Origin: Pseudaminobacter soli (ex Zhang et al. 2022) | GTDB taxonomy: Bacteria > Pseudomonadota > Alphaproteobacteria > Rhizobiales > Rhizobiaceae | Reading direction: 5' to 3' | Length of the DNA stretch: 64,000 nucleotides | NCBI RefSeq assembly: GCF_014595955.1 | Contig: NZ_JABVCF010000018.1 | Location: 1-64,000, forward strand | Shown: positions 7,086 to 61,613 of the stretch, in pieces | How positions within the stretch are numbered: position 1 is the first letter of the stretch | Layout: each line of letters opens with the position of its first letter | Translations under genes and position numbers: made by a program | Notes under the pieces: generated by a model | Told to the model about the DNA's origin: nothing | Databases searched by the model: none | The model's input: the letters and a program-made list of their open reading frames with translations, nothing else

Positions 7086-7382
7086 TGCCGCGACATCAAA
7101 CGCGAAGCGCTCGTTTGCACTAGGGGGCCATTTCCGAACGCACTGGAGCGATCTGCGCTCGTTTGCTTGTTCCTTCTTTCCCCCAGGCGGCCGGAGAGAT
7201 CGGCCTTGCTGGAGATTCGGGCACGTCTCGACGGCGCGGGGCACGTCTGAAAACCAGCCTCGAGGTGGTCCCCCGACGAAGGGACATTGGCCGCCAACCC
7301 TGCCAGTTCAGATTTTTCCGCGAAGTGCTACTCGAAAAATGAAGCGAGCGACGGCTTGCCTGGCGCTTCCTGGGAGGAACAC
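7086..7382. other. intergenic stretch between scfR and the first TRAP operon
   Basis: About 300 bp with no coding frame I can support. It contains one copy of the shared dyad (7267-7286) and, just before the dctP start, the ribosome site TGGGAGGA. I see no convincing terminator after scfR. Confidence 0.5.
7267..7286 (+). promoter_or_regulatory. shared dyad element, site A
   Basis: GGTCCCC at 7267-7273, a 6-bp spacer, and AGGGACA at 7280-7286. Each arm matches the consensus TGTCCCC/GGGGACA in 6 of 7 bases. It ends 97 bp before the TRAP dctP start. Confidence 0.55.
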
Positions 7383-8531
7383 ATGGCTTCGACAAATCTA
7401 CTCGGACGCATAACCACGACCGTTCTTCTTGGACTTGCGCTTGGCGCGGGCCAGGCTGCGGCGAAGGATCTGCGCTACGCCACAGGCTTTGCGCCCAACT
7501 CGACCGGCGCCAAGGCGCAGGAGGCCTCGGCCGCCTACGGTAAGGAGATCTCGAAGGGCGATCTCAACATCCGTGTCTACCCGCAGTCGCTGCTCAGCTT
7601 CACCGAGATGTCCGGCGGCGTGCGGGACAACATCGCCGAGATGGGCATGGTACTCTTCCCATACTTCCCGGCGGAATTCCCGAACTCGACCATGGTGTCG
7701 GAGATGACCATGCTGTTCTCCCGGCACGATACGGGGGATCGTGGCGGCCTCGCATGGACCGGCGCGCTGATCGAATACATCACCCTGAACTGCCCCGCCT
7801 GCACCGACGAGATGGCGGCGCAGAACCAGGTGTTCACGTCCAGCTCGTCGACTGAATACACAATGATGTGCATGAAGAAGATCGAGACGGCGGCCGACAT
7901 GCAGGGCGTTCGAATCCGGGCGCCGGGCGCGCATTGGACCCGCTGGGCAAATTCGGTTGGCGCGACCTCGGTGTCGGTGCCGCAGAACGAGATCTTCGAA
8001 GGGCTGAGCCAAGGCATTCTGGACTGTTCGCTTTCGGGCACCGCGGAACTGGTGGATCTCAGCCTCGTCGACGCGGTGAAGTACATCATTCACGACGTGC
8101 CGGGCGGCGGCTTCGGCGGCACCGGCCTGATGAACGTCAATCTCGACGTCTGGGCCAGCCTGACGCCAGAACAGCGTACCGAACTTCTGCGCATTGGCGC
8201 GCATGGCTCCGCCTACGGTTCCTGGAACTACCGCACGAACAATCTGGCTGCCCTGGAAGCCGCTCAAAAGAAGGGCATCGAGATTGTCACTCCTTCGGAA
8301 GATTTCCTCAAGGCGACGCGCGAGTTCACGAACGCCGACCTGAAATTGATCGCCAAGACCTATGCCGAGAAATACGGCCTCAAGGACACCGACCAGGCGG
8401 TTCAGAAGATGTCCGAGCTGTTCGAGAAATGGGTCGGCCTCGTCGCCAACGTCGAGAGCGCGGAGGCCTATCAGGAATTGCTCTGGAACGAGGCGTACTC
8501 GAAGATCAACGTCGAGACCTACGGAATGTAG
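7383..8531 (+). CDS. TRAP transporter substrate-binding protein (DctP family)
   Basis: Periplasmic binding protein of a tripartite ATP-independent transporter for organic acids. The 382-residue product has a signal peptide (MASTNLLGRITTTVLLGLAL, cleavage probably after AAA at residue 27). The start at 7383 is chosen because a strong TGGGAGGA site precedes it and the signal peptide begins there, although the frame is open back to 7287. The segment GVRIRAPG contains the Arg that in DctP proteins pairs with the substrate carboxylate. It is divergent in sequence from the three DctP paralogs near 35-39 kb. DctQ and DctM follow, so this is a complete three-part carrier; the ligand is unknown but probably carries a carboxylate. 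Confidence 0.92.
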   Translation: MASTNLLGRITTTVLLGLALGAGQAAAKDLRYATGFAPNSTGAKAQEASAAYGKEISKGDLNIRVYPQSLLSFTEMSGGVRDNIAEMGMVLFPYFPAEFPNSTMVSEMTMLFSRHDTGDRGGLAWTGALIEYITLNCPACTDEMAAQNQVFTSSSSTEYTMMCMKKIETAADMQGVRIRAPGAHWTRWANSVGATSVSVPQNEIFEGLSQGILDCSLSGTAELVDLSLVDAVKYIIHDVPGGGFGGTGLMNVNLDVWASLTPEQRTELLRIGAHGSAYGSWNYRTNNLAALEAAQKKGIEIVTPSEDFLKATREFTNADLKLIAKTYAEKYGLKDTDQAVQKMSELFEKWVGLVANVESAEAYQELLWNEAYSKINVETYGM

Positions 8532-8656
8532 GCCGTCCTTCCCAGGATCGAGGGCGCGGTTGGCCCGTCCCGATCCTACCCAGAAAATCTTCGGGCAGGC
8601 AGGCTGCATGGTGCGGCTACGCCGGTCCCTCGTCGCAGCGAAGTGCGGAGGAGCGC

Positions 8657-9205
8657 ATGTTCGGTCTCGGCAGGCTCATCTCGAGATTGATCGATCTATT
8701 CACCAACCTCGGTGGGATATTCATCATAGTCATGATGATCCACATCACGGTGGACGTCATACTCCGCTATTTCTTCCATTCCGCTGTGGAAGGGACGATC
8801 GAGATTGTCTCCAACTACTACATGATAATCATTGGTTTCCTGTCGCTCTGCTTCACCGAGGAGAAGAACAGGAACATCTCCGTCGAACTCGTGACGGACA
8901 TGATGCCGAAGTGGCTGCAGCGCCATCTCGAGGGCTTCTCCTACCTGTTCGCACTGGTGATCTTCGGCCTTCTCGCCGTGCGCACCTTCATCGAAGCGGG
9001 CAAGAAGCAGGCCGTCGGTGCATTCGTGACGCAAGGCACCTCCGACATCGTCATCTGGCCGGCCTACTACGTCATTCCATTTGGCTGCGTCCTCGTCCTC
9101 ATCGTGGTCGCCTACAAGTTCGCCTGCTACGTCACGGGGTCGGAATCCGGGCTGAACGAGAAGCTGGAAGACGCTGATCCTGCCGCCGAATACGGGATTC
9201 CCTAA
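8657..9205 (+). CDS. TRAP transporter small membrane subunit (DctQ family)
   Basis: Small integral-membrane subunit linking the binding protein to the DctM permease. The 182-residue product shows about four membrane helices, for example IFIIVMMIHITVDVILRYFF, YYMIIIGFLSLCF, FSYLFALVIFGLLAV and VIPFGCVLVLIVVAY. The start ATG at 8657 follows GGAGGAG. A longer open frame extends far upstream in the same phase but overlaps dctP and is not real. The stop overlaps the DctM start (TAATG). Confidence 0.9.
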   Translation: MFGLGRLISRLIDLFTNLGGIFIIVMMIHITVDVILRYFFHSAVEGTIEIVSNYYMIIIGFLSLCFTEEKNRNISVELVTDMMPKWLQRHLEGFSYLFALVIFGLLAVRTFIEAGKKQAVGAFVTQGTSDIVIWPAYYVIPFGCVLVLIVVAYKFACYVTGSESGLNEKLEDADPAAEYGIP

Positions 9206-10515
9206 TGACCGAAATTCAGATCGGCTTTGCCGGCCTAGCGATCCTGTTGCTGCTGCTGGCGATCCGCATTCCCATCGGATTGGCACTGATCGGCGTCTCG
9301 TACTGCGGAATCTGGGCGCTCGTCGGCTGGAACGTCGCGTGGGGCGCGATCGGCATCATTCCCTACCAGTTCTCAGCCAACTGGGTGCTGAGTTCGGTTC
9401 CCATGTTCCTGCTGCTCGGCTTCGTGAGCTATCACGCCCAACTCACGAAAGGTCTGTTCGACGCCGCAAAGGTCTGGCTCTCCGGCCTCCCCGGCGGGCT
9501 GGCCATCTCCGCCGTACTCGGCTCGTCCGCCTTCGCGGCGGTTTGCGGGTCGTCCGTGGCGTGCTCGGCGGCCATGGGGCGCATCGCCGTGCCGGAAATG
9601 ATGCGGGCGCGTTACCATCCCGAACTCGCCACCGGAACGGTCGCCGTCGCCGGAACGATCGGCGCGCTCATTCCGCCATCGATCCTGATGATCCTCTACG
9701 GCGTCATCGCGCGTCAGCCGGTTCCCCAGCTTTTCCTCGGCGGCTTCGCGATCGGCATCCTGTCGGCGATCGCTTACATCGTCGTCGTCTTGGTTCGGGT
9801 GAAGCTCAATCCGGCTCTCGCCCCGCGCGTCGTCCAGCATGTCCCGTTCTCGGAGAAGATGGCCGCGCTGGCGGATACCTGGCCGATCCTTCTCGTGATG
9901 ATCGGTATTTTCGCCGGATTGTTTGGCGGGGTCTTCACGGCGACGGAGGCCGGCGCCGTCGGGGCGTTCCTCGCCTGCGTCGTCGGCGTCGCCAAGCGCG
10001 CCCTGACCTGGCGCCGGTTCAAGGCAGCGGCGATCGAATGCCTCCTGACCACGAGCGCGCTGATCATCATCGGCGTCGGCGCCAGCCTGTTCACGCGGTT
10101 CCTCGCCATCTCCGGCGTCGGCAGCATCATCTCCGACGCCGTGCTCGGCGTGAGCGACAACGAGATGGTCATCATCATGATGATCGTCGCCGTCTATCTT
10201 GTCCTTGGCTGCTTCCTCGAGCCGATCGGCGCGATGCTGCTGACGCTGCCCATAGTCCTGCCGATCGTCTCGGAAGGCGGCCACAGCCTGATCTGGTTCG
10301 GCGTTCTGCTGACCAAGCTGCTCGAGATCGGCATGATCACCCCGCCGATCGGCATGAACGTCTTCGTGATCAAGGGCGTAGTCGGAAATCTCGTCTCGCT
10401 GACGGCCATATTCAGAGGGGTGATGTGGTTCCTCGCCATGGATCTCTTCCTCGTCGTGATCATGGTCCTGTTCCCACAACTCACCCTCGCGGTCCCGCAG
10501 TACTTCCTCAACTGA
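9205..10515 (+). CDS. TRAP transporter large permease (DctM family)
   Basis: Large membrane subunit that carries the sodium-coupled transport path. The 436 residues contain many membrane helices and DctM-typical stretches such as GSSAFAAVCGSSVACSAAMG, GTIGALIPPSILMILYGVI and EIGMITPPIGMNVFVIKGVV. The length is normal. The start codon overlaps the stop of DctQ by one base. The acyl-CoA dehydrogenase gene follows 68 bp later on the same strand, suggesting that transport and the first catabolic steps are co-expressed. Confidence 0.93.
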   Translation: MTEIQIGFAGLAILLLLLAIRIPIGLALIGVSYCGIWALVGWNVAWGAIGIIPYQFSANWVLSSVPMFLLLGFVSYHAQLTKGLFDAAKVWLSGLPGGLAISAVLGSSAFAAVCGSSVACSAAMGRIAVPEMMRARYHPELATGTVAVAGTIGALIPPSILMILYGVIARQPVPQLFLGGFAIGILSAIAYIVVVLVRVKLNPALAPRVVQHVPFSEKMAALADTWPILLVMIGIFAGLFGGVFTATEAGAVGAFLACVVGVAKRALTWRRFKAAAIECLLTTSALIIIGVGASLFTRFLAISGVGSIISDAVLGVSDNEMVIIMMIVAVYLVLGCFLEPIGAMLLTLPIVLPIVSEGGHSLIWFGVLLTKLLEIGMITPPIGMNVFVIKGVVGNLVSLTAIFRGVMWFLAMDLFLVVIMVLFPQLTLAVPQYFLN

Positions 10516-10583
10516 GGCTTCCTCGACCGATCTGGCGCGTCGTTCCGGCAGGACACTCGCGGGCGTTGCCATGGAGAGAACAG

Positions 10584-11789
10584 ATGGATGGACGCCCCTC
10601 CGAACGGGATCTGGCCTTTCAGGCCGAGGTCCGGTCGTTCCTCGCGGAAAAGTTGACGCCCGAGATTCGCGCCTGGGCCGCGCGCCAGACAGGTGTGGCC
10701 GCGGAGCGCAAGCTGGGCGCCTGGTGGCACAGGACGCTGTTCGAGCGGGGCTGGATCGCTCCGGCCTGGCCCGTAGAGCATGGCGGCACGGGGTGGGACG
10801 CCATGCAAAGGCACATATTCGAGGAGGAGTGCGCCAGCGCAAATGCGCCGCAGCTCTTCCTGGCTGGGCTGCAACTATGCGGCCCGGTGATCATGAAATT
10901 TGGTACGCCGCAGCAGAAGGCGTTCTTTCTGCCTAGGATACGTTCCGGAGAACACTACTGGTGCCAGGGCTTCTCCGAGCCTGGTTCGGGGTCCGATCTC
11001 TCGTCGTTGACGACGCGCGCCGTACGCGATGGCGACGACTACGTCGTCACCGGTTCGAAGATCTGGACGACGCACGCGCATAACGCGAACTGGATCTTCA
11101 TGCTGGTTCGCACCTCGACCGAGGGCCGCCAACAGGTAGGCATCAGTTTCCTGCTCTCGCCCATGGACGCACCGGGCATCGAGGTCCGCCCGATCATCTC
11201 CATGTCCGGCGAGCACGAGGTCAATCAGGTCTTCTTCGACGATCTGCGTGTGCCCGTCGCCAACCGGGTCGGCGATGAGAACCAGGGCTGGGCCATCGCC
11301 AAGTACCTGCTCGAGTTCGAACGTGGCGGGAGCTATGCGGCCGTCGCGCGCGCACTTCTGCGCGAAGCGCTCGTCGCTGCACAGACGCCGGACCCAATCG
11401 ACGGCACGCGGCTATGGGACGATCCGGCGTTCCGTCGCCGCTACGCCGAACTGGACATCGAGATCACCGCCCAGAGCTGGACCGAGAAGCGGGTGATATC
11501 CAGCCTGGCGGCCGGCGACAGTGTCGGTGACATGATGGCTTCCATTCTCAAGGTTCGCGGCTCGGAGGTGCAGCAGGCGGCCGGCGAACTGGCCATGCGC
11601 GCTCTTGGCGAACTCGCCATACCAGACCAGCGCCGCGCCCTTTGTCCCGGCAGCCATGCGCCGCCGATCGGCCCAGGCTTCGCGCTCCGACCCACGGCGC
11701 GCTTCCTCAACGACCGGGCGCGCTCGATCTACGGCGGCTCCAACGAAATCCAGCGCAACATCATTGCAAGGTTCGTCGCCAGCGGCTGA
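10584..11789 (+). CDS. acyl-CoA dehydrogenase, large partner (FadE/ChsE-like)
   Basis: FAD enzyme forming the alpha,beta double bond of an acyl-CoA. The 401 residues include the flavin/substrate loop WCQGFSEPGSGSDLSSL, SKIWTTHAHNANWIF, and the C-terminal IYGGSNEIQRNIIARF. The start ATG at 10584 follows GGAGAG and begins MDGRPSERDLAFQ; the frame stays open well upstream but overlaps dctM. A shorter dehydrogenase of the other sequence type (13943-15058) lies in the same operon. The two together look like a heteromeric alpha2beta2 enzyme of the kind used for bulky steroid or terpenoid side chains. That pairing is inference. Confidence 0.9.
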   Translation: MDGRPSERDLAFQAEVRSFLAEKLTPEIRAWAARQTGVAAERKLGAWWHRTLFERGWIAPAWPVEHGGTGWDAMQRHIFEEECASANAPQLFLAGLQLCGPVIMKFGTPQQKAFFLPRIRSGEHYWCQGFSEPGSGSDLSSLTTRAVRDGDDYVVTGSKIWTTHAHNANWIFMLVRTSTEGRQQVGISFLLSPMDAPGIEVRPIISMSGEHEVNQVFFDDLRVPVANRVGDENQGWAIAKYLLEFERGGSYAAVARALLREALVAAQTPDPIDGTRLWDDPAFRRRYAELDIEITAQSWTEKRVISSLAAGDSVGDMMASILKVRGSEVQQAAGELAMRALGELAIPDQRRALCPGSHAPPIGPGFALRPTARFLNDRARSIYGGSNEIQRNIIARFVASG

Positions 11790-11831
11790 GCCGGCGCTCG
11801 GATCGGAGCAATCCAAAGGAAGGGACATTGC

Positions 11832-12287
11832 ATGACACGGGTTTTCGAGAGCCCAAGCGAACTTAAGACAGCGGTCGGCGAGGCGATCGGACCCGGCGAA
11901 TGGCTCACCGTCACGCAGAAGATGATCGACGACTTCGCCGAGGCGACCGGCGACAAGCAGTGGATTCATGTCGATGTGGAGCGAGCCGAGAAGGAAGCCC
12001 CCGGCGGCAAGACGATTGCTCATGGATATCTGACGCTCTCGCTGCTCGGCGTGCTCCAGCCGCCGCTCTACACGGTGAAGGCCTCGCGGATCCTCAACTA
12101 CGGCATAGACAAGCTGCGTTTCCTGAACGCCGTTCCCGTGGGATCGCGCGTTCGATTGATCACCTCGATCAAGTCCGTCGAGGAAGCTTCTGGCGGCCTG
12201 CGGGCAACGGCTGAACTCACCATCGAGATCGAGGGTGAGAAGCGTCCCGCGCTCGTGGCGGACATCATCTTTCTCTACTTCGCGTGA
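11832..12287 (+). CDS. MaoC-family (hot-dog) dehydratase/hydratase
   Basis: Single-domain hot-dog protein of 151 residues, probably an (R)-specific enoyl-CoA hydratase. The hydratase-2 motif is present: DDFAEATGDKQWIHVDVERA (the Asp...His pair) followed by KTIAHGYLTLSLL. An AAGGAAGGGA ribosome site lies just upstream of ATG 11832. It sits between an acyl-CoA dehydrogenase and an acyl-CoA ligase, so it most likely hydrates the enoyl-CoA produced by the dehydrogenase. Confidence 0.9.
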   Translation: MTRVFESPSELKTAVGEAIGPGEWLTVTQKMIDDFAEATGDKQWIHVDVERAEKEAPGGKTIAHGYLTLSLLGVLQPPLYTVKASRILNYGIDKLRFLNAVPVGSRVRLITSIKSVEEASGGLRATAELTIEIEGEKRPALVADIIFLYFA

Positions 12288-12341
12288 GCCCGCAGCGGCG
12301 CGTTGCCGCCATGGATCATGCCTGGCTTCCTGGAGGACAGA

Positions 12342-13940: not shown

Positions 13941-13942
13941 CG

Positions 13943-17105: not shown

Positions 17106-17116
17106 GACCCGTCTCC

Positions 17117-21895: not shown

Positions 21896-21915
21896 CATCC
21901 CCTCTCATAGGGACC
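21896..21915 (-). promoter_or_regulatory. shared dyad element, site B
   Basis: CATCCCC at 21896-21902, a 6-bp spacer, and AGGGACC at 21909-21915. Each arm matches the consensus in 5 of 7 bases. It lies in the divergent region, 53 bp from the crotonase start at 21843 and 86 bp from the GTG at 22001. Confidence 0.45.
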
Positions 21916-24895: not shown

Positions 24896-25209
24896 ATTGC
24901 GGGTTGCTGACCGGCATTGGCCACCGTGCACAAGGGTGCAGGCTGGAATCGCTTGTTCGCGGAGCTAGACCGTTCTTGTGCTGGCTCGCTGGCGAGCCCG
25001 CTCTTCAACGGCGATCTCCGGGGCAGCGATTATTGGCAAATTCACCCCGCGCGCGAGCAGCCGGTATCCGACCGGATCAGGGCTGAAACAAAACCCCGAC
25101 ACGTCCCTCGCGGCAGGGATACAGGATGCCACGACGCTGCATCACCGTCGCGCCGTTCCATCGCATCAGTCGGGCTTCGCCCGTCGCCCCCGTCATTGGA
25201 AGAAAAGAG
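24896..25209. other. intergenic stretch before the EthD gene
   Basis: About 310 bp without a frame I can support; short open frames here have no homology I recognise. It holds a tight GC hairpin without a T tract (24983-24998, arms GGCTCGC/GCGAGCC) and one copy of the shared dyad (25102-25121). It probably carries a fresh promoter for the genes from 25210 on. Confidence 0.45.
25102..25121 (+). promoter_or_regulatory. shared dyad element, site C
   Basis: CGTCCCT at 25102-25108, a 6-bp spacer, and AGGGATA at 25115-25121. Both arms are identical to those of site J near 47.76 kb. It ends 89 bp before the EthD-protein start. Confidence 0.45.
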
Positions 25210-30086: not shown

Positions 30087-31004
30087 CTACCGCGCCGAGG
30101 CGGTCAGCGCCTGACGGACGCGTCCGCCGGGCAGCCCGCCGGGTATGGCGGCGCCGTCGCAGGCAATCGGCACCAGCGCGTCGAGATCGATGCCGGTCGC
30201 GGCCCCCATGCGCCGGAACATCCAGGCAAGGTCCTCGGTCGCGACATTACCGGTCGCGCCAGGCGCAAAGGGGCAGCCGCCGAGCCCTGCGAAGGACGCG
30301 TCGAAGACGCGGATACCCTGCCTCCAGGCGGCATAGACATTCGCCAGGCCCAGCCCGTAGGTGTCATGCGCGTGCAAGGCCCAGCGCCGCACCTGCGGAA
30401 ATCGCGCGAGGCTCGCGGCGAAGAGGCGCTCGACGTGGTCAGGCGAAGCGCGTCCCGTGGTGTCGCAGAGACAGATCTCGGCGTCGGGGCGGACCGGCAC
30501 CAGCGCTTCGAGCAGCGACAGCACGTCGGCTTCCGCCACGCGCCCGTCGAACGGGCAGTCGAAGGAGGTCGCGAGGTTCAGCCGGACGTCTATCCCCGCC
30601 GGCAGGGCGGCGACCAAGCGTCGGTACTCCTCAACGGATTCCAGCGGATGCCGGCGAACGTTGCTGCGGTTGTGCGCTTCCGAAACCGACAGGACGAAGG
30701 CGAGTAAGGTCGCTCCCGCATCGAGCGCGGCGCGACCGTATGTCTCGTTGGGGACCAGCACCTGCGGACGAATGCCGGCGATGGCGCTGCAGGCGCCCAG
30801 CACCTCGGCGGTGTCGCTCAACTGCGGCAGGGCCGCGGCGCTGACGAAAGAGCCGATCTCGATCCGGCCAAGCCCCGTCGCGGCCAGGCGTTCAAGGAAG
30901 GCGATCTTGGTGGCGGTCGGGATAAAAGGCCCGATGCCTTGATAGCCGTCGCGCGGCCCGACTTCGACGATCTCGACATCTCGCGCGGGTGACGAGGCGG
31001 TCAT
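30087..31004 (-). CDS. hydroxymethylglutaryl-CoA lyase family protein
   Basis: TIM-barrel lyase of 305 residues in the HMG-CoA lyase family, cleaving 3-hydroxy-3-methylacyl-CoA (or citramalyl-CoA-like) thioesters by retro-Claisen/aldol chemistry. The N-terminal EVGPRDGYQG keeps the catalytic Arg18 and Asp19 but has Tyr where the family usually has Leu. LCDTTGRASP, LHAHDTYGLGLANV (metal His pair) and the active-site loop GLGGCPFAPGATGNVATEDL with the catalytic Cys are intact. The start ATG overlaps the stop of the CoA transferase (ATGA). Together they look like a module that activates and splits a branched dicarboxylic intermediate. Confidence 0.9.
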   Translation of the reverse strand: MTASSPARDVEIVEVGPRDGYQGIGPFIPTATKIAFLERLAATGLGRIEIGSFVSAAALPQLSDTAEVLGACSAIAGIRPQVLVPNETYGRAALDAGATLLAFVLSVSEAHNRSNVRRHPLESVEEYRRLVAALPAGIDVRLNLATSFDCPFDGRVAEADVLSLLEALVPVRPDAEICLCDTTGRASPDHVERLFAASLARFPQVRRWALHAHDTYGLGLANVYAAWRQGIRVFDASFAGLGGCPFAPGATGNVATEDLAWMFRRMGAATGIDLDALVPIACDGAAIPGGLPGGRVRQALTASAR

Positions 31005-32338: not shown

Positions 32339-32358
32339 TGTCCTCCCTGCCGGGGACA
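32339..32358 (-). promoter_or_regulatory. shared dyad element, site D
   Basis: TGTCCTC at 32339-32345, a 6-bp spacer, and a perfect GGGGACA arm at 32352-32358. It lies between the MFS stop and the CoA transferase start, 121 bp from that start. Confidence 0.55.
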
Positions 32359-33691: not shown

Positions 33692-33711
33692 TGTCCTGCG
33701 CGGCAGGGACG
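33692..33711 (-). promoter_or_regulatory. shared dyad element, site E
   Basis: TGTCCTG at 33692-33698, a 6-bp spacer, and AGGGACG at 33705-33711, 54 bp from the MFS start. On the minus strand, 20 bp beyond the dyad, comes TAGTCT, a candidate -10 box at the spacing also seen at sites F, H, K and N. Confidence 0.55.
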
Positions 33712-34401: not shown

Positions 34402-34421
34402 TGCACCTTCGGGCAGGGACA
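34402..34421 (+). promoter_or_regulatory. shared dyad element, site F (divergent promoter)
   Basis: TGCACCT at 34402-34408, a 6-bp spacer, and AGGGACA at 34415-34421. It lies 53 bp from the wrbA GTG and 54 bp from the NTF2-like ATG, almost exactly mid-way, so one site could serve both promoters. Confidence 0.5.
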
Positions 34422-35025: not shown

Positions 35026-35044
35026 TGTCACCCGGCGGGGGACA
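35026..35044 (+). promoter_or_regulatory. shared dyad element, site G
   Basis: TGTCACC at 35026-35032, a 5-bp spacer, and a perfect GGGGACA arm at 35038-35044, extended on both sides to CTGTC...GACAG. It ends 155 bp before the dctP start at 35199. Confidence 0.6.
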
Positions 35045-38675: not shown

Positions 38676-38695
38676 TGTCCCCGATGCGAGTGACA
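38676..38695 (+). promoter_or_regulatory. shared dyad element, site H
   Basis: A perfect TGTCCCC arm at 38676-38682, a 6-bp spacer, and AGTGACA at 38689-38695, extended to CTGTC...GACAG. It ends 105 bp before the dctP start; TAGAAT begins 20 bp after the dyad as a candidate -10 box. Confidence 0.6.
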
Positions 38696-41793: not shown

Positions 41794-42101
41794 TAACCGC
41801 AGGATTTGAGCGGCCCCTATCCTCAACGGACGCTGCCCAAGCGGCGCAGAGGTGTCGCCGTCAGGCGGAGCATCCGACGCTCTCACTTTTTGCTGCCGAG
41901 ATAAGCGAAATCTCTGGCGGGTAGGCCGCGGAGATCTCTTGAGGCGCTGCGCCGCCCGAATGCGAACGTGTGCCCTTATCAGGGGGCGATACAGACCTTT
42001 TCAATACATTGCCTAGCCTCCCTCGGTGTTCTGTGCGCCAGCTTTGAGATGTGCGCGCACCGCCCCGCATGATCGGAAGACGACCGCCTCCATGTCGGCA
42101 C
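41794..42101. other. intergenic stretch between two convergent terminators
   Basis: About 300 bp between the TRAP-operon terminator and the luxR-type terminator. I see no supportable gene, only short frames of odd composition. It holds an orphan copy of the shared dyad (41969-41988). It may be the remains of a lost gene and promoter. Confidence 0.4.
41969..41988. promoter_or_regulatory. shared dyad element, orphan site P
   Basis: TGTGCCC at 41969-41975, a 6-bp spacer, and GGGGGCG at 41982-41988. Neighbouring genes both end toward it, so no start lies nearby. It is either a chance match or the relic of a removed promoter. Confidence 0.3.
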
Positions 42102-42170: not shown

Positions 42171-42980
42171 TCAGTTCAGGGTGGCGGCGGCTTCGGGCTC
42201 GCTGCGCGTCGCGCTCCACAGCGCCAGATACCAGATCAGCAACTCGCGCTGGCTGCCGATCCCGAGCCTCAGATAGGCTCGCTTGCGATAGGTCATCACG
42301 CTCTCCTTGCCGATGCCGAGATCGAGCGCGATGCCGTAGGAGGAAAGCCCGTAGAGGATGCGCGCGCAAACCTCGCCTTCGCGCCGCGACAGATCGGTCG
42401 CCGACAGCACACATTCCTCGATCTCCGGCAGCGAACTGAGGGCCGGCGTGAGGTTGGGCTTGTTGGCGACCAAGTCATTGTGCTTGGCGATCGCGGAAAC
42501 GAGTATTCCGGCGGTGCGCCGCAGCAACTCGATGTCCATGTCCTGCGCCGGATCGTGCTGCGCCGGGCGAACGATGCTCAGGCAGTAGGCGGCGTCGGCC
42601 TTGCGCGTCGCGACGAGGATACGCTGCCGGCGCCCGGCGGCGAATCCACAGGCGCGTGCCCCGGCTTCCGGGATGCCTGCGATTTCGATGCGCACCGCAT
42701 CAACGGCAACCATGCTGAGCTGGCGCTTTATCTCGTAGGCCGAGAGATCCGGCCCGGCAGGTGCCGCTTCGAGGTTGGCGCAGACGAGCAGGGACAGTTC
42801 CCCGCCACGGAGCTGGTAAGCCGCGCAATGGTCGGCCCCGACGACGGCGGCGGCGAAGGACAGCACGCGTTCGGCGAAATCATGGGCGCCGATCGACTCC
42901 ACGATGGCCGAGAGCGCGGAACCGTCCTGAAGCACAGGGCGGTCCGTCGGCGCATGCGCGGCATTCAGCGTGATTGTCAT
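42171..42980 (-). CDS. LuxR-family transcriptional regulator
   Basis: Regulator of 269 residues with a C-terminal GerE/LuxR helix-turn-helix at about 195-255 (LSRREGEVCARILYGLSSYG and GIGKESVMTYRKRAYLRL). The N-terminal ~180 residues form an unrecognised sensor-like domain, possibly GAF-related, with Cys and aromatic residues around DHCAAYQLRGGELSLLVCAN. GGGAGGAG precedes ATG 42980. It is the only intact regulator inside the accessory region and is therefore the leading candidate to bind the shared TGTCCCC-N6-GGGGACA dyads. LuxR-type dimers bind dyads of about 20 bp, but this link is inference. Its own promoter carries a different dyad (43017-43047). Confidence 0.9.
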   Translation of the reverse strand: MTITLNAAHAPTDRPVLQDGSALSAIVESIGAHDFAERVLSFAAAVVGADHCAAYQLRGGELSLLVCANLEAAPAGPDLSAYEIKRQLSMVAVDAVRIEIAGIPEAGARACGFAAGRRQRILVATRKADAAYCLSIVRPAQHDPAQDMDIELLRRTAGILVSAIAKHNDLVANKPNLTPALSSLPEIEECVLSATDLSRREGEVCARILYGLSSYGIALDLGIGKESVMTYRKRAYLRLGIGSQRELLIWYLALWSATRSEPEAAATLN

Positions 42981-47726: not shown

Positions 47727-47746
47727 TGTCCCCCTTCCTGGGGAAA
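47727..47746. promoter_or_regulatory. shared dyad element, site I
   Basis: A perfect TGTCCCC arm at 47727-47733, a 6-bp spacer, and GGGGAAA at 47740-47746, in the region between the P450 operon (start 47579) and the ferredoxin reductase (start 47851). Confidence 0.6.
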
Positions 47747-47752: not shown

Positions 47753-47772
47753 CGTCCCTTGACGGAGGGATA
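47753..47772. promoter_or_regulatory. shared dyad element, site J
   Basis: CGTCCCT at 47753-47759, a 6-bp spacer, and AGGGATA at 47766-47772, only 6 bp after site I. The arms are identical to site C. A tandem arrangement of two sites occurs only here, at the redox-partner promoter. Confidence 0.5.
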
Positions 47773-52935: not shown

Positions 52936-53029
52936 CGAAGCCTCTCGTCGCAAATGGTCGGCGTGCGGGCCGGCTTACACGGACTGCCAGCGCGGCGTCC
53001 GTCAGCTTAGGCCGGACCGTTCCGCCATC

Positions 53030-53049
53030 TGTCCCCGATATCGGGGACC
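53030..53049. promoter_or_regulatory. shared dyad element, site K (best palindrome)
   Basis: TGTCCCC at 53030-53036, spacer GATATC, GGGGACC at 53043-53049. The inner 18 bp (53031-53048) are a perfect palindrome. It lies 55 bp before the DUF3237 start and 95 bp before the SDR start. On the minus strand TAAGCT begins 20 bp beyond the dyad. Confidence 0.7.
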
Positions 53050-53103
53050 GCCTTCCGTGGGCGGTCCAGTCGATGGTGGTGCGGCAACAGGAGGGGAGAA
53101 GGT

Positions 53104-53568: not shown

Positions 53569-53573
53569 AGCAA

Positions 53574-53654
53574 TTCCGGCAAAAGTGCGCAGCGGGATTG
53601 CGAAAACAAGGAGATAGGGCAGTTCCGTTGGTTCGGAGAAATACGGAAATGCCC
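53574..53654. repeat. rhizobial-type intergenic palindromic element
   Basis: About 80 bp between the convergent DUF3237 and Fe-dehydrogenase genes. It opens GAGCAATTCCGGCAAAAGTG and contains AACAAGGAGATAGGGC, wording I associate with a repeat scattered through Mesorhizobium-like genomes. Its right part folds: GGGCAGTTCCG (53617-53627) pairs with CGGAAATGCCC (53644-53654) at 10 of 11 positions. The family assignment is from memory and needs a genome search. Confidence 0.5.
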
Positions 53655-53662
53655 CATCGCTG

Positions 53663-54805: not shown

Positions 54806-54851
54806 CGGGTCCTGTTCCTTTTCTTTGAACCGGCGCGGCCGGCAGTGCGGA

Positions 54852-56120: not shown

Positions 56121-56176
56121 GACTGTGCGGATATCCTCTCCGGCCATCGTGTTACGCCCGCCGGCCCCCGCAGGTC

Positions 56177-56195
56177 TGTCACCTCGGGAGGGACC
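56177..56195 (-). promoter_or_regulatory. shared dyad element, site L
   Basis: TGTCACC at 56177-56183, a 5-bp spacer, and AGGGACC at 56189-56195, 57 bp upstream of the P450 start at 56120. Confidence 0.5.
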
Positions 56196-56198
56196 GAT

Positions 56199-57182
56199 TC
56201 ACCGCGGCCCCTCGAGCATCGCCAGAAAGTCGAGGATCAGCCTGGACGTCTCCTCCGGCGCCTCCTGCTGCACCCAGTGGCCGACGCCATCGAGGAAATG
56301 CACGCCGCGCACGTCGGCGAGGCGCGGCACCGGGTCGGCATAGCGGTCGAAGCCGGGGATCATGTAGCGCGTCGGCTCCAGCACGCCGCCGATGAACAGC
56401 GAAGGCTGCTCGATGCGTGCATCCGCATGCGGCCGCATCAGAGTCCAGTCGAGATCGATGCAGCGGTATCGGTTGAGCGGGCCGCGCAGGCCGCTGCGCC
56501 GGAAGCTCTCGGCATAGAAGCGCACGTCCTCGCGACTGAGCCACGGCGGCAGGTCGTCCGGGTCGGGCAAGCCGTCGAGCAGCCGGGTGGTTCCCGCCGG
56601 GCGGACGAGGACGTTGTCGGTGAGCGATCCCTGCCCGGACAGGCTGCGGAAGAAGACGCGGATGAACCGTTCGAGATCCGGCTCGAACTCGGCCTCGGCG
56701 ACGCCTTCCGGCTGGAAGTAGGCCTGGTAGAAGACACGCTCGCCATAGAGGCGCGGCCAGGCGTCCGACGGTTTTTGCGGCGGATGGTTGGCGGCCGGAA
56801 CCGAGACGGTGACCATACCGCGCACCCTGGCGGGATGCAGCAGCGCCGCCGCCTGCACCTGCACCGCGCCCCAGTCATGGCCGACGAGCACGGCGCCTTC
56901 GGGGGCGAGTGCCTCAATGACAGCCGCGATGTCGCCGGCGAGCTCGACGATGGAATAGGCCTCGACCGGGCGGGGCTTGCCGGAGGCGCCGTAGCCGCGC
57001 ACTTCGAGCGCGGCGGCCCGGAAGCCCGCCGCCGCGACGGTCTCGATCTGGTGCCGCCACGAATACCAGGATTCCGGAAAGCCGTGCACGAACAGCAAGA
57101 GCGGCCCGGCGCCGGCAAGGGCGACATTCAGCCGGACGCCGTCCTTTCCGGCGATCGTGCGGAATTCCAGCGCTGCGTTCAT
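56199..57182 (-). CDS. alpha/beta hydrolase, epoxide hydrolase-like
   Basis: 327 residues. HGFPES (34-39) forms the oxyanion hole, GHDWGA places the nucleophile Asp103, and the late segment FLDGVGHWVQQEAP places the catalytic His302; a further acid lies in the PGFDRYADP segment. Use of Asp rather than Ser as nucleophile and the HGFPES/GHDWG pair are epoxide hydrolase and haloalkane dehalogenase features. It lies between two P450 genes, so it may open an epoxide made by one of them. Its stop is immediately followed by site L, the presumed promoter of the next P450. Confidence 0.88.
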   Translation of the reverse strand: MNAALEFRTIAGKDGVRLNVALAGAGPLLLFVHGFPESWYSWRHQIETVAAAGFRAAALEVRGYGASGKPRPVEAYSIVELAGDIAAVIEALAPEGAVLVGHDWGAVQVQAAALLHPARVRGMVTVSVPAANHPPQKPSDAWPRLYGERVFYQAYFQPEGVAEAEFEPDLERFIRVFFRSLSGQGSLTDNVLVRPAGTTRLLDGLPDPDDLPPWLSREDVRFYAESFRRSGLRGPLNRYRCIDLDWTLMRPHADARIEQPSLFIGGVLEPTRYMIPGFDRYADPVPRLADVRGVHFLDGVGHWVQQEAPEETSRLILDFLAMLEGPR

Positions 57183-57194
57183 GCCAAGTCCCCG

Positions 57195-57232
57195 CGATCA
57201 CCGTCGTTGCTCATTGCGGGCGATCACCGTCG
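57195..57232. repeat. 12-bp direct repeat between hydrolase and P450 genes
   Basis: CGATCACCGTCG occurs at 57195-57206 and again at 57221-57232, 14 bp apart. The 62-bp gap between the P450 stop (57245) and hydrolase start (57182) consists largely of this pair. It could be a slippage duplication or a tandem binding site. Confidence 0.5.
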
Positions 57233-57244
57233 CCGCTAAGGCTG

Positions 57245-58504
57245 TCAGCGCAATTCGACCGGCAGCGACCGCGGCGCGCGGAACACATAGGTGTAGGCGT
57301 GCTCGACCTTCGCATTCTCGGCGAGCCGGACATTGGGGAAGCGTCTGGTGAACTCCTCCAGCACGATCTTCATCTCCAGTCGGGCGAGCGGCGCGCCGAG
57401 GCAGACATGCTTGCCGTTGCCCATCGTCAGGTGCTTGCGCGCGTTCTTGCGCCGCACGTCGAAGCGCTCCGGCTCCTCGAAATGCTTCTCGTCGCGGTTG
57501 GCCGAGCCGAAGGACAGGATGATGTTGCCGCCGGCCGGGATGGTGACCCCGCCGATCTCGATGGCGGTCTTAGCGCGGCGGCGCCATCCGATGACCGCGC
57601 CGCAATAGCGGAACGTTTCCTCGACCGCGAAGGGGATCAGCGAGGTGTCGGCGCAGATCGCCTCCCAGTTGTCGCGATAGGTCAGCAACGCGCGGAAAGC
57701 GTTGGTGAGTTGGCTGGTGGTCGTCTCGTGGCCGGCGAAGACCAGGCCGTAGACGACGGTCGTCAGTTCGTTGAGCGTCAGGATCGAATCGTCGCCGTTG
57801 CGCACCCTGAGCAGGCCGCTGACGACGTCGTCGCCGGGGCTTTCCATCCTCTTGCGCACCAGGTCGACGCAATATTGCCAATAGGCGACCATATCCCTCG
57901 CGCCGGCGATCTGCTGCTCGTAGGTCGACGGGCTGAAATTGAGGATGGTGCGGGTTCCCGACCAAGCCTTGACCTTGTCCATATCCTCCTGCGGTATGCC
58001 CAAGAGCAGGAACAGGACCTGCGCCGGCAATTCATAGGTGAGATCCGCTAGCAGGTCGGCGCTTTGCCGGCCCTCCAGTCGGTCGAGCGCCTTCGTCACG
58101 AGATCCCGAATGGCCGGCTCCATCGCCGTGAAGGTCCTGATGTTCAGGAGTTGGGCCGAGGCGTTGCGCACGCGCGTATGGCGTTCGCCATCGCAGTTCG
58201 ACTGCACCTTCTCGGCCGTGAAGTTGCCGGCCTTCATAATGTCGATGGCGTCCTGATGGACGGGCGAGGCCGAGTCGCTGGTGTTCTCGGAGGAGATGCG
58301 GTCGTGGTCGTGCAGAATCGCCATCGCGTCGTCATAGCGGGTGACGATCCAGTAGCCGGTCTCGGGCGAGTAGAAGACCGGCTCGTCCCGACGGGCCTGC
58401 GCCAACTCGGCGTACATAGTTTCGTGATAGTAGGGGCTGGGGCGATTTCCCATGCCGTGCACGGGACAACTGCCGCGCGAGGTGGTGCCGGCGACGTCGC
58501 TCAT
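57245..58504 (-). CDS. cytochrome P450 (non-CYP199 type), paralog of 54852-56120
   Basis: P450 of 419 residues. Heme Cys is residue 368 (MGNGKHVCLGAPLARLE), the K-helix is ETFR, and the I-helix is LVFAGHETTTSQLTN. The start ATG at 58504 (MSDVAGTTSRGSCPVHG) has a strong GGGAGGA site, so the upstream open frame to 58564 is ignored. Shared segments with the other P450 of this type (EPVFYSP, VTRYAD/VTRYDD, GHETTTSQ, SANRDE/SANRDD) show recent duplication. The epoxide-hydrolase-like gene follows 62 bp downstream. Confidence 0.93.
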   Translation of the reverse strand: MSDVAGTTSRGSCPVHGMGNRPSPYYHETMYAELAQARRDEPVFYSPETGYWIVTRYDDAMAILHDHDRISSENTSDSASPVHQDAIDIMKAGNFTAEKVQSNCDGERHTRVRNASAQLLNIRTFTAMEPAIRDLVTKALDRLEGRQSADLLADLTYELPAQVLFLLLGIPQEDMDKVKAWSGTRTILNFSPSTYEQQIAGARDMVAYWQYCVDLVRKRMESPGDDVVSGLLRVRNGDDSILTLNELTTVVYGLVFAGHETTTSQLTNAFRALLTYRDNWEAICADTSLIPFAVEETFRYCGAVIGWRRRAKTAIEIGGVTIPAGGNIILSFGSANRDEKHFEEPERFDVRRKNARKHLTMGNGKHVCLGAPLARLEMKIVLEEFTRRFPNVRLAENAKVEHAYTYVFRAPRSLPVELR

Positions 58505-58558
58505 TGCCAATCCTCCCAGATCAGGTCCCCCATTCTCCGCGAGGCGGTTCCGCCGGGA

Positions 58559-58578
58559 TGTCACCCCCGGCGGGTACC
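58559..58578 (-). promoter_or_regulatory. shared dyad element, site M
   Basis: TGTCACC at 58559-58565, a 6-bp spacer, and GGGTACC at 58572-58578, directly abutting the stop of the upstream SDR. It lies 55 bp before the P450 start at 58504. Confidence 0.5.
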
Positions 58579-59349
58579 TCAGTTCGGCGAGAAGCCGGAA
58601 TAGAGCGCCATCTGGCCGCCGTCATTGTTCATGATCAGGCCGGTGACGTAGGAGGCCTCCCCGGACGCGAGGAACAGCATGGCGTCCGCCTGCTCCTCCG
58701 GCTTGCCGATGCGGCCCATCGGTATGCGGCGGCGGCGCTCGACGAACCGGTTGGCGTCCAGCGTCTCCATCTGCTTGATCATGTTGGTTTCCGTCAGTCC
58801 GGGGCAGAGGCAGTTGACCCGGATACCGTACTGCGCCCATTCGACGGCCAGTGCCTTTGTCAGCCCGGTGACCCCGTGCTTTGAGGCGATGTAGCCGACG
58901 TCTCCCGGAAAGGCGGCGAAGCCGGCATTGGAGGAGACGTTGACGATGGCGCCGCTGCGGTTGGGGATCATCGTCAGCGTGGCGGCCGCGCGAGACCAGT
59001 AGAATGGCGCATCGAGATTGATCGCCATCGTCCGCCGCCACACCGCATAGTCGGTCGCCGGCTGGATGGTCGACACGCCGGCATTGTTGACAAGCACGTC
59101 GACGCGGCCGAGCCGGTCGACCACCTCACGGATGCTCGCCTCCGCCACGGCTTCGTCGGCGACGTCCCCGGCGATCGCTACGGCATTGCCTCCGGCTTCC
59201 CGGATCGAGCCGACGGCGGCCTCGAGGCTTTCCGGCTTCAGGTCATTGAGAGCGACGGTCGCCCCCTCGGCGGCGAACTTGCGTGCCGCGGCCAGGCCCA
59301 TGCCCGAGGCGGCGCCGGTGATGACGACGATCTTGTCCTTGAACCGCAT
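58579..59349 (-). CDS. short-chain dehydrogenase/reductase, tandem copy 1
   Basis: SDR of 256 residues starting MRFKDKIVVITGAASGMGLA at 59349. LNDLKPES favours NAD, NNAGVSTIQPATDY, SSNAGFAAFPGDVGYIASKH (Ser, Tyr-x3-Lys) and CLCPGLTETNMIKQMETLDA follow. It is 11 bp after its paralog and shares its full layout, including the unusual RFVERRRRIPMGRIGKPEEQ block. The frame remains open upstream but overlaps the paralog. Probably oxidises a product of the neighbouring P450s. Confidence 0.9.
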   Translation of the reverse strand: MRFKDKIVVITGAASGMGLAAARKFAAEGATVALNDLKPESLEAAVGSIREAGGNAVAIAGDVADEAVAEASIREVVDRLGRVDVLVNNAGVSTIQPATDYAVWRRTMAINLDAPFYWSRAAATLTMIPNRSGAIVNVSSNAGFAAFPGDVGYIASKHGVTGLTKALAVEWAQYGIRVNCLCPGLTETNMIKQMETLDANRFVERRRRIPMGRIGKPEEQADAMLFLASGEASYVTGLIMNNDGGQMALYSGFSPN

Positions 59350-59360
59350 GGTTGCCTTCC

Positions 59361-60131
59361 TCAGCCCGGAGACCAGCCGGAGGACAGCGCGATCTGCCCG
59401 CCGTCGACGTTGAGCGTCGCCCCGGTGATGTAGGAGGCGTCGTTCGAGGCGAGGAAGGCCATGGCCTTCGCCATCTCCTCCGGCTGTGCGGCCCGCTGCA
59501 TGGGGATGCGCCGGCGCCGCTCGGCGAAGCGGTTCGGGTCGATCGCCTCCATTTCCTTGATGATCTGCGTGTCGGTGAAGCCGGGGCATACGCAGTTCAC
59601 GCGGATGTTGTACTTCGCCCATTCGACCGCGAGCGACCGGGTCAGCCCGAGCACCCCGGCCTTGGCGGCGATGTAGCCGACGTCGCCGGGATAGGCGACC
59701 AGCCCCGCCAGTGACGAGATGTTGACGATGGCGCCGGCTTTGTTCGGGATCATGCTCTGCGCGGCCGCGGCCTGCGACCAGTAGAAGGGAGCGTTGAGGT
59801 CGACGCCGATGATTCTGTCCCACTCGGTGTAGGTTTCGGCCGGCTGGATCGTGGCAATCCCGGCATTGTTCACGAGGACGTCGATGCGGCCGTGCCGCTT
59901 GACGGTTTCTGCCACGCAGGCGTGCGCCACCTCCTTGCTGGCGACGTCTCCCGGGATCGACAAAGCGCTGCCACCCGCGGCCCTGATGGCGGCGACGGTC
60001 CGCTCTGCCGTCTCTGCCTTGACGTCGTTTACGGCGACGATGGCGCCTTCGGCGGCGAACAGTTTCGACGCGGCGAGCCCCATGCCGGAGCCGCCGCCGG
60101 TTATAACGACCACTTTATCCTTGAAGCGCAT
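59361..60131 (-). CDS. short-chain dehydrogenase/reductase, tandem copy 2
   Basis: SDR of 256 residues starting MRFKDKVVVITGGGSGMGLA at 60131. It has NDVKAETA, NNAGIATIQPAETYTEWDR, SSLAGLVAYPGDVGYIAAKA (Ser, Tyr-x3-Lys) and CVCPGFTDTQIIKEMEAIDP. Nearly every block has its match in the downstream SDR, so this is a tandem duplication with the same length. Site N lies 61 bp before the start. GGGAGGATT precedes the ATG. Confidence 0.9.
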   Translation of the reverse strand: MRFKDKVVVITGGGSGMGLAASKLFAAEGAIVAVNDVKAETAERTVAAIRAAGGSALSIPGDVASKEVAHACVAETVKRHGRIDVLVNNAGIATIQPAETYTEWDRIIGVDLNAPFYWSQAAAAQSMIPNKAGAIVNISSLAGLVAYPGDVGYIAAKAGVLGLTRSLAVEWAKYNIRVNCVCPGFTDTQIIKEMEAIDPNRFAERRRRIPMQRAAQPEEMAKAMAFLASNDASYITGATLNVDGGQIALSSGWSPG

Positions 60132-60191
60132 GCCGCTCAGAATCCTCCCGTGAAAATCTGCACGAGAGTTAACAGCGGGACGGTCCGCGTC

Positions 60192-60210
60192 TGTAACCCG
60201 CCGAGGGACA
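60192..60210 (-). promoter_or_regulatory. shared dyad element, site N
   Basis: TGTAACC at 60192-60198, a 5-bp spacer, and AGGGACA at 60204-60210, 61 bp upstream of the SDR start. On the minus strand TAACTC begins 20 bp past the dyad, the same phase as at sites E, F, H and K. Confidence 0.5.
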
Positions 60211-60240
60211 AGGACACTGCGCCGCCCGCAAACGCCAGCG

Positions 60241-60274
60241 AAAAACGAAACCGCCGCCCTTTTGGGGCGGCGGT
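60241..60274 (-). terminator. rho-independent terminator after the ABC binding-protein gene
   Basis: On the minus strand ACCGCCGCCC and GGGCGGCGGT arms (60274-60265 and 60259-60250) enclose a 5-base loop and run into TTTCGTTTTT. It lies about 28 bp past the stop of the binding-protein gene, separating it from the SDR operon. Confidence 0.82.
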
Positions 60275-60301
60275 GGTTCTCGATCGGACCGCAAGGCCGG
60301 G

Positions 60302-61438
60302 TCAGGGTGCCAGTTCGAACTTGCCGTCCTTGACTGTGATCACGGCCGCGCCGTAGCTCGGGTTTCGCTTGTCGTCCAGCGTCCAGACATGGGTACCGAG
60401 CACTGTCGGCTGGTCGCGCAGCTTGCCGAGCGCATCCTTCACCTTGTCGCGATCGGGGCCGGGTCCCGCGTCCTTGATCGCCTGCACTGCGAGGGATGCC
60501 AGCGCATAGCCCATTGCCGCCCAATTGTCGGGGCTCGCGCCATAGGCTTCTGTGTAGGCCCTCACGAAATCCTGGTTGATCGGGGTGGGATCGCCGACGA
60601 AATAGTCGGCGACGACATAAGCGCCTTCCGACGCGCCACCGGCGGTGGTTATGAAGGATTCCGAGCCGAAGGTCGACGGCCCGAGGAACAGCACTTCCGG
60701 CGGCACGCCGCCCTGGCGTGCCTGCAGCAGCACGTTGGACCCGACTTCCGCCGGCGCGGCGACGAAGAAGGCGTTGATGTCCTGGCTGGCGAGCTTGGTC
60801 GCCAGCGCCAGGAAGTCGGTGTCGGACGACAGGATGCCTTCCTCCGACACGATCTCGACGCCTTCCTCCACGAGCAGCTTCTTGAAGGCGTCCTTCTGGC
60901 CGACGAAGCCGTCATTGGCGCGATCGAATACTAGGCTGACCTTCTTCACGCCCAGCTTCTCGGCGGCGTATTTGCTCAGGTGGCCCATGATGTCCATGCC
61001 GACCTGCTGGACCTTGTAGGAATAAGGCCCAGCGTCGAGGATCGCCGTGGACGAGCCGATGGCGAACAGCGGCACCTTCTGGTCGTTGGCGACCGGCGCG
61101 CCACCGGTTGCCTCGAGGCTGGTGGTCGGCCCGAGGATCATCAGCACATTGTCACTTTGTGCGAACTTGCTGACCAGCGTGATGGTCTGTGCCTTGTCGC
61201 CGGCCGAGTCCGCCTCGACCACTTCGAGCTTCAGATCGCCAAGCGCGCCGGACGTGTTCGCCTGCTCGATGGCAAGCTTCATGCCGTTCTGGATCGGCAC
61301 GCCGCCGAAGGCATAGGGGCCGGTCAGCGCGTTCATCACGCCGATCTTGGCGGTTTCGGCCCAACTCGGCGCGGCCGTCGACGCGCTCGCCAGCAGGATC
61401 GCGCTGCCGGCCATCAGAATTCTGCGGGTAAGCTTCAT
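60302..61438 (-). CDS. ABC transporter substrate-binding protein (branched-chain amino-acid/aromatic-acid type)
   Basis: Periplasmic binding protein of 378 residues with signal peptide MKLTRRILMAGSAILLASAS, cleavage near SWA at residue 27. The start at 61438 is preceded by GGGAGGA. ETAKIGVMNALTGPYAFGGV and IQNGMKLAIEQANTSG are the usual Leu/Ile/Val-binding-protein opening; the two-lobe fold follows. Homologs in catabolic clusters often bind aromatic acids rather than amino acids. The ATPase and permease genes (livF, livG, livM) lie just upstream, separated by a hydratase remnant. Confidence 0.92.
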   Translation of the reverse strand: MKLTRRILMAGSAILLASASTAAPSWAETAKIGVMNALTGPYAFGGVPIQNGMKLAIEQANTSGALGDLKLEVVEADSAGDKAQTITLVSKFAQSDNVLMILGPTTSLEATGGAPVANDQKVPLFAIGSSTAILDAGPYSYKVQQVGMDIMGHLSKYAAEKLGVKKVSLVFDRANDGFVGQKDAFKKLLVEEGVEIVSEEGILSSDTDFLALATKLASQDINAFFVAAPAEVGSNVLLQARQGGVPPEVLFLGPSTFGSESFITTAGGASEGAYVVADYFVGDPTPINQDFVRAYTEAYGASPDNWAAMGYALASLAVQAIKDAGPGPDRDKVKDALGKLRDQPTVLGTHVWTLDDKRNPSYGAAVITVKDGKFELAP

Positions 61439-61593
61439 CGTATTCCTCCCTGTCCAAGCGAGGCGTCGGGCGTGGTCAGGTATTCTCCCTGCTCCGGCGA
61501 CGCTCGTTGCGTTCGAGCGCATCCCTCGACTCCGGCGACATTTCTGGGTTCGCCGGAATTCAGTGCATCTATCCGCCGGTCGGAATTTCGGTC

Positions 61594-61613
61594 TGTCCCT
61601 TCGGCCGGGGGCG
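61594..61613 (-). promoter_or_regulatory. shared dyad element, site O
   Basis: TGTCCCT at 61594-61600, a 6-bp spacer, and GGGGGCG at 61607-61613. The right arm is weak. It lies between the hydratase remnant and the binding-protein gene, 156 bp from that start. Confidence 0.4.

Follow-up and report, generated by a model that had tools for sequence, protein, structure and literature searches.

The stretch of DNA analysed here (the window) comprises 64,000 nucleotides of Pseudaminobacter soli, positions 1 to 64,000 of the contig designated C10 (95,270 bp), and carries an island of P450, TRAP transporter and acyl-CoA genes in which an inverted repeat recurs upstream of genes. The repeat, or dyad, is real. 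Its best common form consists of 6-base arms, TGTCCC-N8-GGGACA (20 bp), and a 19-bp variant with N7 also occurs. On sequence comparisons, the dyads are most probably operators (probability about 0.8) of the LuxR-family protein encoded inside the island at 42171-42980 and called P0001, which would be a pathway-specific activator, not of the acyl-homoserine-lactone (AHL) type, of the P450/TRAP catabolic island. An earlier note made from the window sequence had proposed that a shared dyad joins the accessory operons into one regulon, and this proposal was strongly supported by shuffled controls, conservation before orthologues, concentration on C10 and a fixed distance to a -10-like hexamer.

Occurrence of the dyad in the window, contig and genome

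In an arm scan of the window (TGTCCC/GGGACA, at least 10 of 12 matches), 12 sites were found at spacer 8, and the other spacers between 2 and 14 gave 0-5 each. Eight of these 12 sites were intergenic although intergenic DNA makes up only 7,122 of the 64,000 bases (11%), so that the density was not equal in intergenic and coding DNA. Two more of the 12, 38676 and 61594, fall in the 5' ends of open reading frame (ORF) calls that are too long. C10 as a whole contained 20 spacer-8 sites, whereas 100 Markov-1 shuffles had 3.7 on average and never more than 8.

A weight matrix was built from 49 sites of the related loci L019-L028 alone, with no window sequence and with the 90%-identical M. ephedrae locus left out. 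Nine window positions scored at least 12 with this matrix; 20 shuffles had 0.5 on average and 2 at most. Ranks 1-11 among the 63,981 window positions (N8) were all taken by sites listed in the earlier note; 33692 ranked 14, and 35026, 60192 and 56177 were the top three 19-bp (N7) positions. The test is not fully independent and is as much a test of conservation, because some of the matrix sites are orthologous to window sites. The 15 sites that had been placed upstream of genes were supported in this way. The remaining one, an orphan at 41969 between convergent genes, ranked 22, within noise, and is probably a chance match outside the regulon. Matches of 9/12 are common in the window and weak when alone.

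All 16 sequences quoted in the note were present at their coordinates. Its remark that no site precedes pccB or scfR was borne out, since nothing of at least 9/12 at spacer 7 or 8 was found in 1-7223, which holds pccA, pccB and scfR. Its consensus cTGTCcCC/GGGGACAg stood in the TGTCCC/GGGACA core, the outer c/g being hardly conserved, and its spacers (6 in twelve sites and 5 in four) had to be corrected to 6 in 13 and 5 in 3 with 7-base arms, 58559 fitting 6 better. The exact pattern TGTCNCC-N6-GGGGACA had no match anywhere in the genome. A sequence model of the dyad gave no match in its own genome at E up to 10, an uninformative result as the model is too short for a 6-Mb search.

Within the 6.1-Mb genome, 17 dyads with at most one mismatch were found against 4 in a reversed-pattern control, and six of the 17 lay on C10. 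The composite of dyad, N20 or N21 and TANNNT gave 6 + 6 = 12 matches at up to two mismatches, eight of them on C10, which accounts for 95,270 of 6,106,750 bp (1.6%) of the genome; with the patterns reversed as controls, 2 and 3 matches were obtained. Of the 11 dyads with at most one mismatch outside C10, the nine examined had no TANNNT at 17-24 bp, and the other two are on contig C49. Because the composite matches concentrate on C10 and the examined dyads elsewhere lack a -10, the regulon looks local and pathway-specific, and a genome-wide regulon is unsupported. The regulon does run on for about 18 kb beyond the window end. In C10 64001-84000, dyads of at least 10/12 numbered eight at spacer 8, with a further two at spacer 7, and they sit among more P450, DctP, EthD, NIPSNAP and major facilitator superfamily (MFS) genes, and the last of them has counterparts before orthologues at 82441.

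Conservation in relatives and distance to the -10

Loci of relatives were located through the LuxR-family protein of the window. In 11 of them (L018-L028, 215,986 bp; L018 is M. ephedrae), dyads of at least 11/12 numbered 28 at spacer 8 and 9 at spacer 7, and no other spacer between 0 and 20 had more than 2. In Mesorhizobium, Rhizobiaceae and Roseobacter relatives the dyads stand before orthologous genes, which is the conservation that the earlier note had proposed to look for. Despite altered gene order the target genes are the same: P450/ferredoxin reductase, short-chain dehydrogenase (SDR)/DUF3237, SnoaL/FMN reductase, DctP2, DctP4, CoA-transferase and EthD. In aligned intergenic DNA of orthologous operons the dyad arms were the best-kept columns, and site-specific departures also persist across relatives, such as GGTGCA before FMN reductase. 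At a threshold of 9/12, which is weak alone (most counterparts scored 10-12), counterparts were found in M. ephedrae for 15 of 15 supported sites, in M. zhangyense for 12 of the 14 with an orthologue (33692 and 58559 missing; 7267 without orthologue), and in a Rhizobiaceae metagenome-assembled genome (MAG) for 9 of 13 (33692, 47753, 56177 and 61594 missing; 7267 and 21896 without orthologue).

The -10-like hexamer TANNNT was counted in 177 flanks of spacer-8 dyads of at least 10/12, taken from C10, L019-L028, L054, L055 and L058-L061. It began 20 bp past the dyad in 13 flanks and 21 bp past it in 14, and no other offset from 0 to 74 had it in more than three (background 0.58 per offset; Poisson 7e-14 for offset 20 and 3e-15 for offset 21). 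Seven control spacers gave no TANNNT peak. Five of the 27 flanks were on C10 and 22 in other loci, and the five C10 sites (32339, 33692, 34402, 38676 and 53030) each point toward a gene start. A further window match, 56093 at offset 19, was intragenic and in the wrong direction. If the hexamer is the -10, the dyad centre would lie at about -42.5 to -43.5. A dyad centred near -42.5 and overlapping the -35 is in the class II position for LuxR-type activators. The TANNNT peak would fit this geometry, with a strict TANNNT there at 5 of the 15 supported window sites.

In L129 (11855), L130 (11919), L110 (9623), L055 (17841) and L024 (6755), a single dyad has TANNNT 20-21 bp away on either side, as would suit an operator shared by two divergent promoters. 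The LuxR-type proteins near the dyads of L129 and L130 are very short, with open frames of 107 aa.

The candidate regulator and competing explanations

P0001 was matched by the Pfam domain GerE (PF00196) at 197-249 with 31.6 bits (cut-off 23.5; E 1.3e-07), which places it in the LuxR (GerE) superfamily. Its recognition helix reads ..KESVMTYRKRAY.. in the helix-turn-helix (HTH). Neither an autoinducer-binding Pfam domain (up to E 10), as in AHL-responsive LuxR proteins, nor a receiver domain, as in NarL/FixJ response regulators, was found in P0001 or three homologues. An AlphaFold2 model built from 12 sequences (mean pLDDT 77.9, pTM 0.55) predicts a confident HTH and a mixed alpha/beta N domain of sensor type. 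The best PDB matches of this model in Foldseek were LuxR-type quorum-sensing proteins (2q0o, RhlR, SdiA, TraR) with low overall TM (0.3-0.4), and the VqsR ligand-binding domain matched with TMt 0.52; PDB sequences gave no match to P0001 at E up to 0.01. A Pfam scan of 58 window gene products yielded ScfR (5655-7085) and the GerE protein as the only regulators, and 20 further C10 gene products added none.

With profile A1 at E 1e-30, only the own genome matched among 385 genomes of the class, and the looser profile A3 was then used. Identity to P0001 was 72-100% in the HTH and 24-43% in the N-terminal part, except for M. ephedrae (88.5%). An HTH that is kept while the N-terminal part varies is expected if DNA specificity stays while sensing diverges. 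L022 shares just TRAP genes with the island at the threshold used, yet has dyads near its LuxR gene. Dyads also flank distant LuxR homologues in other gene neighbourhoods, on Sphingobium pTK2, in Variovorax, on a Bradyrhizobium CB82 plasmid and in the G019, G132, G160 and G227 loci. In the plasmid of Bradyrhizobium sp. CB82 (L080), a LuxR protein about 25% identical to that of the window has 12/12 dyads on both sides (9877 and 10754), one directly upstream of luxR (possible autoregulation) and the other before a P450 gene. No gene family other than LuxR was common to all 21 compared loci, the next best being the SDR superfamily (up to 16). Spacer-8 dyads of 10/12 were absent from L056 and L057, which belong to these 21 loci.

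Recognition helices were compared across 52 loci (L018-L028, L054-L062, L075-L082 and L108-L131, the window excluded), L056 being classed as TYR[KR]R. The dyad with a -10 at 20 or 21 bp was found at 21 of 30 loci with TYR[KR]R helices and at 0 of 22 with other helices (Fisher 8e-08), and, without L018-L028, which were partly located through a helix peptide pattern, at 12 of 19 against 0 of 22 (Fisher 6e-06); these values overstate the significance, because several loci are near-copies and the other-helix loci are more distant homologues. That every LuxR homologue is accompanied by the dyad is contradicted by the 22 other-helix loci, none of which shows the composite. The second LuxR homologue of the genome (L126, contig C6) has an HR-type helix, and its 20-kb stretch contains no spacer-8 dyad of 10/12.

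Several observations weigh against P0001 as an activator acting at the dyads. All compared loci were chosen by LuxR homology, so the presence of LuxR in them is by construction. The peptide GKESVMTY had been a search pattern, and its invariance across L018-L028 is in part a product of ascertainment. Dyads of at least 11/12 alone were found at 20 of 30 TYR[KR]R loci and 3 of 22 others (10 of 19 against 3 of 22 without L018-L028; Fisher 0.017, likewise overstated). The three other-helix loci (L062, L076, L081) carry one 11/12 dyad each, and 7 of the 30 TYR[KR]R loci (L019, L056, L078, L109, L119, L123, L131) have neither such a dyad nor the composite. A few other-helix loci are short (L112, 3.8 kb; L114, 6.3 kb; L118, 10 kb), and L060 has both helix types, so that the Fisher values are no more than indicative. 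Strict TANNNT at 20-21 bp is present in only 5 of the 15 supported window sites; at 7267, 21896, 25102, 35026, 47727, 47753, 56177, 58559, 60192 and 61594 there are look-alikes at best (e.g. CATTCT, TAACTC). No dyad lies upstream of luxR in any of four species, and the switch is therefore probably supplied by a separate promoter.

The LuxR homologues of L056, L119 and L123 have the TYRKR helix and no strong dyad nearby.

It is unlikely that P0001 reads the dyads mainly as a repressor that an inducer releases. Repressor operators usually overlap the -10 or the start (an example is given in PMC8700777), whereas the fixed 20-21 bp between dyad and -10-like hexamer puts the dyad in the position of an activator. 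In favour of repression, a LuxR-type repressor has been reported in Comamonas steroid catabolism (PMC8700777). Marginally less probable is a different regulator (e.g. of GntR, TetR or IclR type, or ScfR) that reads the dyads with the LuxR gene a mere neighbour. The scfR gene adjoins the island, dimeric repressors use dyads of similar size too, and the regulator scan covered part of the C10 ORFs in an analysis whose loci were chosen by LuxR homology. The scans of window and further C10 products, however, gave ScfR and LuxR only; no other family is shared by the compared loci, and the dyads track the LuxR recognition-helix class. Chance matches picked by eye from GC-rich DNA would account for the orphan, which behaves as one, and 9/12 matches are frequent enough; for the sites in general this explanation is highly improbable, being contradicted by the shuffles, control spacers, other-species matrix, conservation and -10 peak.

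With P0001 as an activator, a LuxR-type dimer, probably inducer-bound, would bind TGTCCC-N8-GGGACA (19-20 bp; 6-8-6 or 6-7-6) over the -35 position, the centre of the dyad being some 42.5-43.5 bp before the transcription start, and would recruit sigma-70 RNA polymerase (class II activation). Where two genes diverge, a single dyad between them could act on both. The N-terminal domain cannot be recognised as one of the AHL type and would probably sense a pathway substrate or intermediate. About 75 kb of genes for TRAP/ABC/MFS uptake, P450s, ferredoxin and acyl-CoA enzymes would thus be under one switch that the substrate induces. The presence of P450s, ferredoxin, TRAP/ABC/MFS uptake, acyl-CoA enzymes and a neighbouring propionyl-CoA carboxylase suggests that the substrate may be polycyclic terpenoid- or steroid-like.

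Related systems and individual sites

The lux box of LuxR/TraR/LasR-type quorum-sensing activators is a dyad of about 20 bp positioned near -42.5. P0001 is like these activators in its GerE HTH and in a predicted fold resembling TraR, RhlR, SdiA and QscR, and the dyad is like the lux box in its length of about 20 bp, its 6-8-6 layout and its inferred centre near -42.5 (class II). Unlike them, P0001 has no autoinducer-binding Pfam domain, the arms are TGTCCC/GGGACA and the target is a catabolic island. TeiR/TesR of Comamonas testosteroni is a LuxR-type positive regulator of a catabolic pathway whose activation appears to require a pathway metabolite (PMC6895838, PMC8700777). The role proposed for P0001 is likened to it by description only and, unlike in the present system, the available parts of those accounts describe no operator. 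LuxR-family EGO55_13855 and Saro_3594 flank progesterone (pdc) genes in Caenibius and Novosphingobium (PMC12239570). Again by description only, they resemble P0001 as LuxR-type proposed activators beside oxygenase genes in Alphaproteobacteria, and differ in that the available part of the account describes no binding site. Among open-licence papers, to which the literature search was mostly confined, none was recognisable, from the text available, as describing this operator.

It is reasonably likely that non-AHL LuxR proteins with a TYR[KR]R helix form a subfamily that occurs across Alphaproteobacteria, with at least one betaproteobacterium (Variovorax) among its hosts, and that shares a single operator code (TGTCCC-N7/8-GGGACA, followed by the -10 at 20-21 bp) although sensors and pathways diverge. 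If so, sequence alone could reveal the regulons of many uncharacterised catabolic islands. For a large uncharacterised P450/TRAP island there is now a candidate regulator with an operator code and a promoter geometry, and the same code allows such an assignment for Mesorhizobium, Roseobacter-group and sphingomonad islands and for at least one betaproteobacterial plasmid. It would hence be possible to predict which genes belong to the regulon, where operons start and which genes are likely to be induced together. The regulator/promoter pair could become an inducible sensor once the ligand is known, and the loci may serve as a natural data set for a LuxR-type activator that holds its DNA code as its sensor domain diverges.

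The sites are listed in Table 1. Sites 47727 and 47753 are two dyads within one divergent promoter region.

Table 1. Dyads of the window, the orphan match and the gene of the candidate regulator. Scores are matches out of 12 to the TGTCCC/GGGACA arms; ranks are those of the relatives-only matrix (N8 unless N7 is given). ECH, enoyl-CoA hydratase; ADH, alcohol dehydrogenase; FeADH, iron-containing ADH.
Feature	Coordinates	Setting (strand)	Hexamer past dyad	Score	Rank	Counterparts and remarks
Dyad (N8)	7267..7286	before DctP1-DctM1-acyl-CoA dehydrogenase-MaoC-AMP ligase-ECH run (+)	dyad+N21+-10 composite match with 2 mismatches	11/12	4	also before M. ephedrae orthologue
Dyad (N8)	21896..21915	between divergent ECH (-) and AMP-ligase (+)		9/12	11	M. 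ephedrae 9/12, M. zhangyense 10/12
Dyad (N8)	25102..25121	before EthD/SDR/ADH run (+)		10/12	9	three relatives at 10-11/12; alignment sets EthD start downstream of ORF call
Dyad (N8)	32339..32358	before CoA-transferase III gene (-)	TAGGTT at 21	11/12	5	with -10 in two relatives; third without strict -10
Dyad (N8)	33692..33711	before MFS gene (-)	TAGTCT at 20	10/12	14	1 of 3 relatives (M. ephedrae only)
Dyad (N8)	34402..34421	between FMN reductase (-) and SnoaL-like gene (+)	TACGTT at 20 toward FMN reductase	10/12	7	three relatives, with -10 at 20-21
Dyad (19 bp, N7)	35026..35044	before DctP2-DctP3-P450 (+)	CATTCT at 20	11/12	best N7 position	M. ephedrae, M. zhangyense; Rhizobiaceae MAG counterpart precedes SDR gene
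Dyad (N8)	38676..38695	before DctP4-DctQ-DctM2 (+)	TAGAAT at 20	11/12	2	M. ephedrae (L018), M. zhangyense, Rhizobiaceae MAG
Dyad (N8)	47727..47746	divergent region of P450/ferredoxin (-) and ferredoxin reductase (+)		11/12	3	TCCCC-N5-GGGGGACA invariant across seven aligned loci, window among them
Dyad (N8)	47753..47772	same divergent region, nearer ferredoxin reductase (+)		10/12	10	M. ephedrae, M. zhangyense; missing in Rhizobiaceae MAG
Dyad (N8)	53030..53049	between SDR (-) and DUF3237 (+)	TAAGCT at 20 toward SDR	11/12	1	L020, L021, L024, L026, with TANNNT at 20-21 toward SDR
Dyad (19 bp, N7)	56177..56195	before P450-FeADH (-)		10/12	third N7 position	2 of 3 relatives
Dyad (N8)	58559..58578	before P450 57245-58564 (-)		9/12	6	M. 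ephedrae and Rhizobiaceae MAG at 9/12; none in M. zhangyense
Dyad (19 bp, N7)	60192..60210	before SDR gene 59361-60131 (-)	TAACTC at 20	10/12	second N7 position	before orthologue in three relatives
Dyad (N8)	61594..61613	before ABC substrate-binding protein gene (-)		10/12	8	M. ephedrae, M. zhangyense; not in Rhizobiaceae MAG
Orphan of earlier note	41969..41988	between convergent DctM2 and luxR, not upstream of a gene		9/12	22	
Candidate regulator P0001, LuxR-family, 269 aa	42171..42980	(-)				N-terminal alpha/beta sensor-like domain and C-terminal GerE HTH

The island encodes at least six DctP-type TRAP binding proteins (7287-41739 and C10 67576-69925), and just two large permeases were seen in the window. 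The protein encoded at 30361-30942 (+) has no Pfam match and is 51-56% identical to proteins in the sphingomonad and Sulfitobacter loci L023, L027 and L028.

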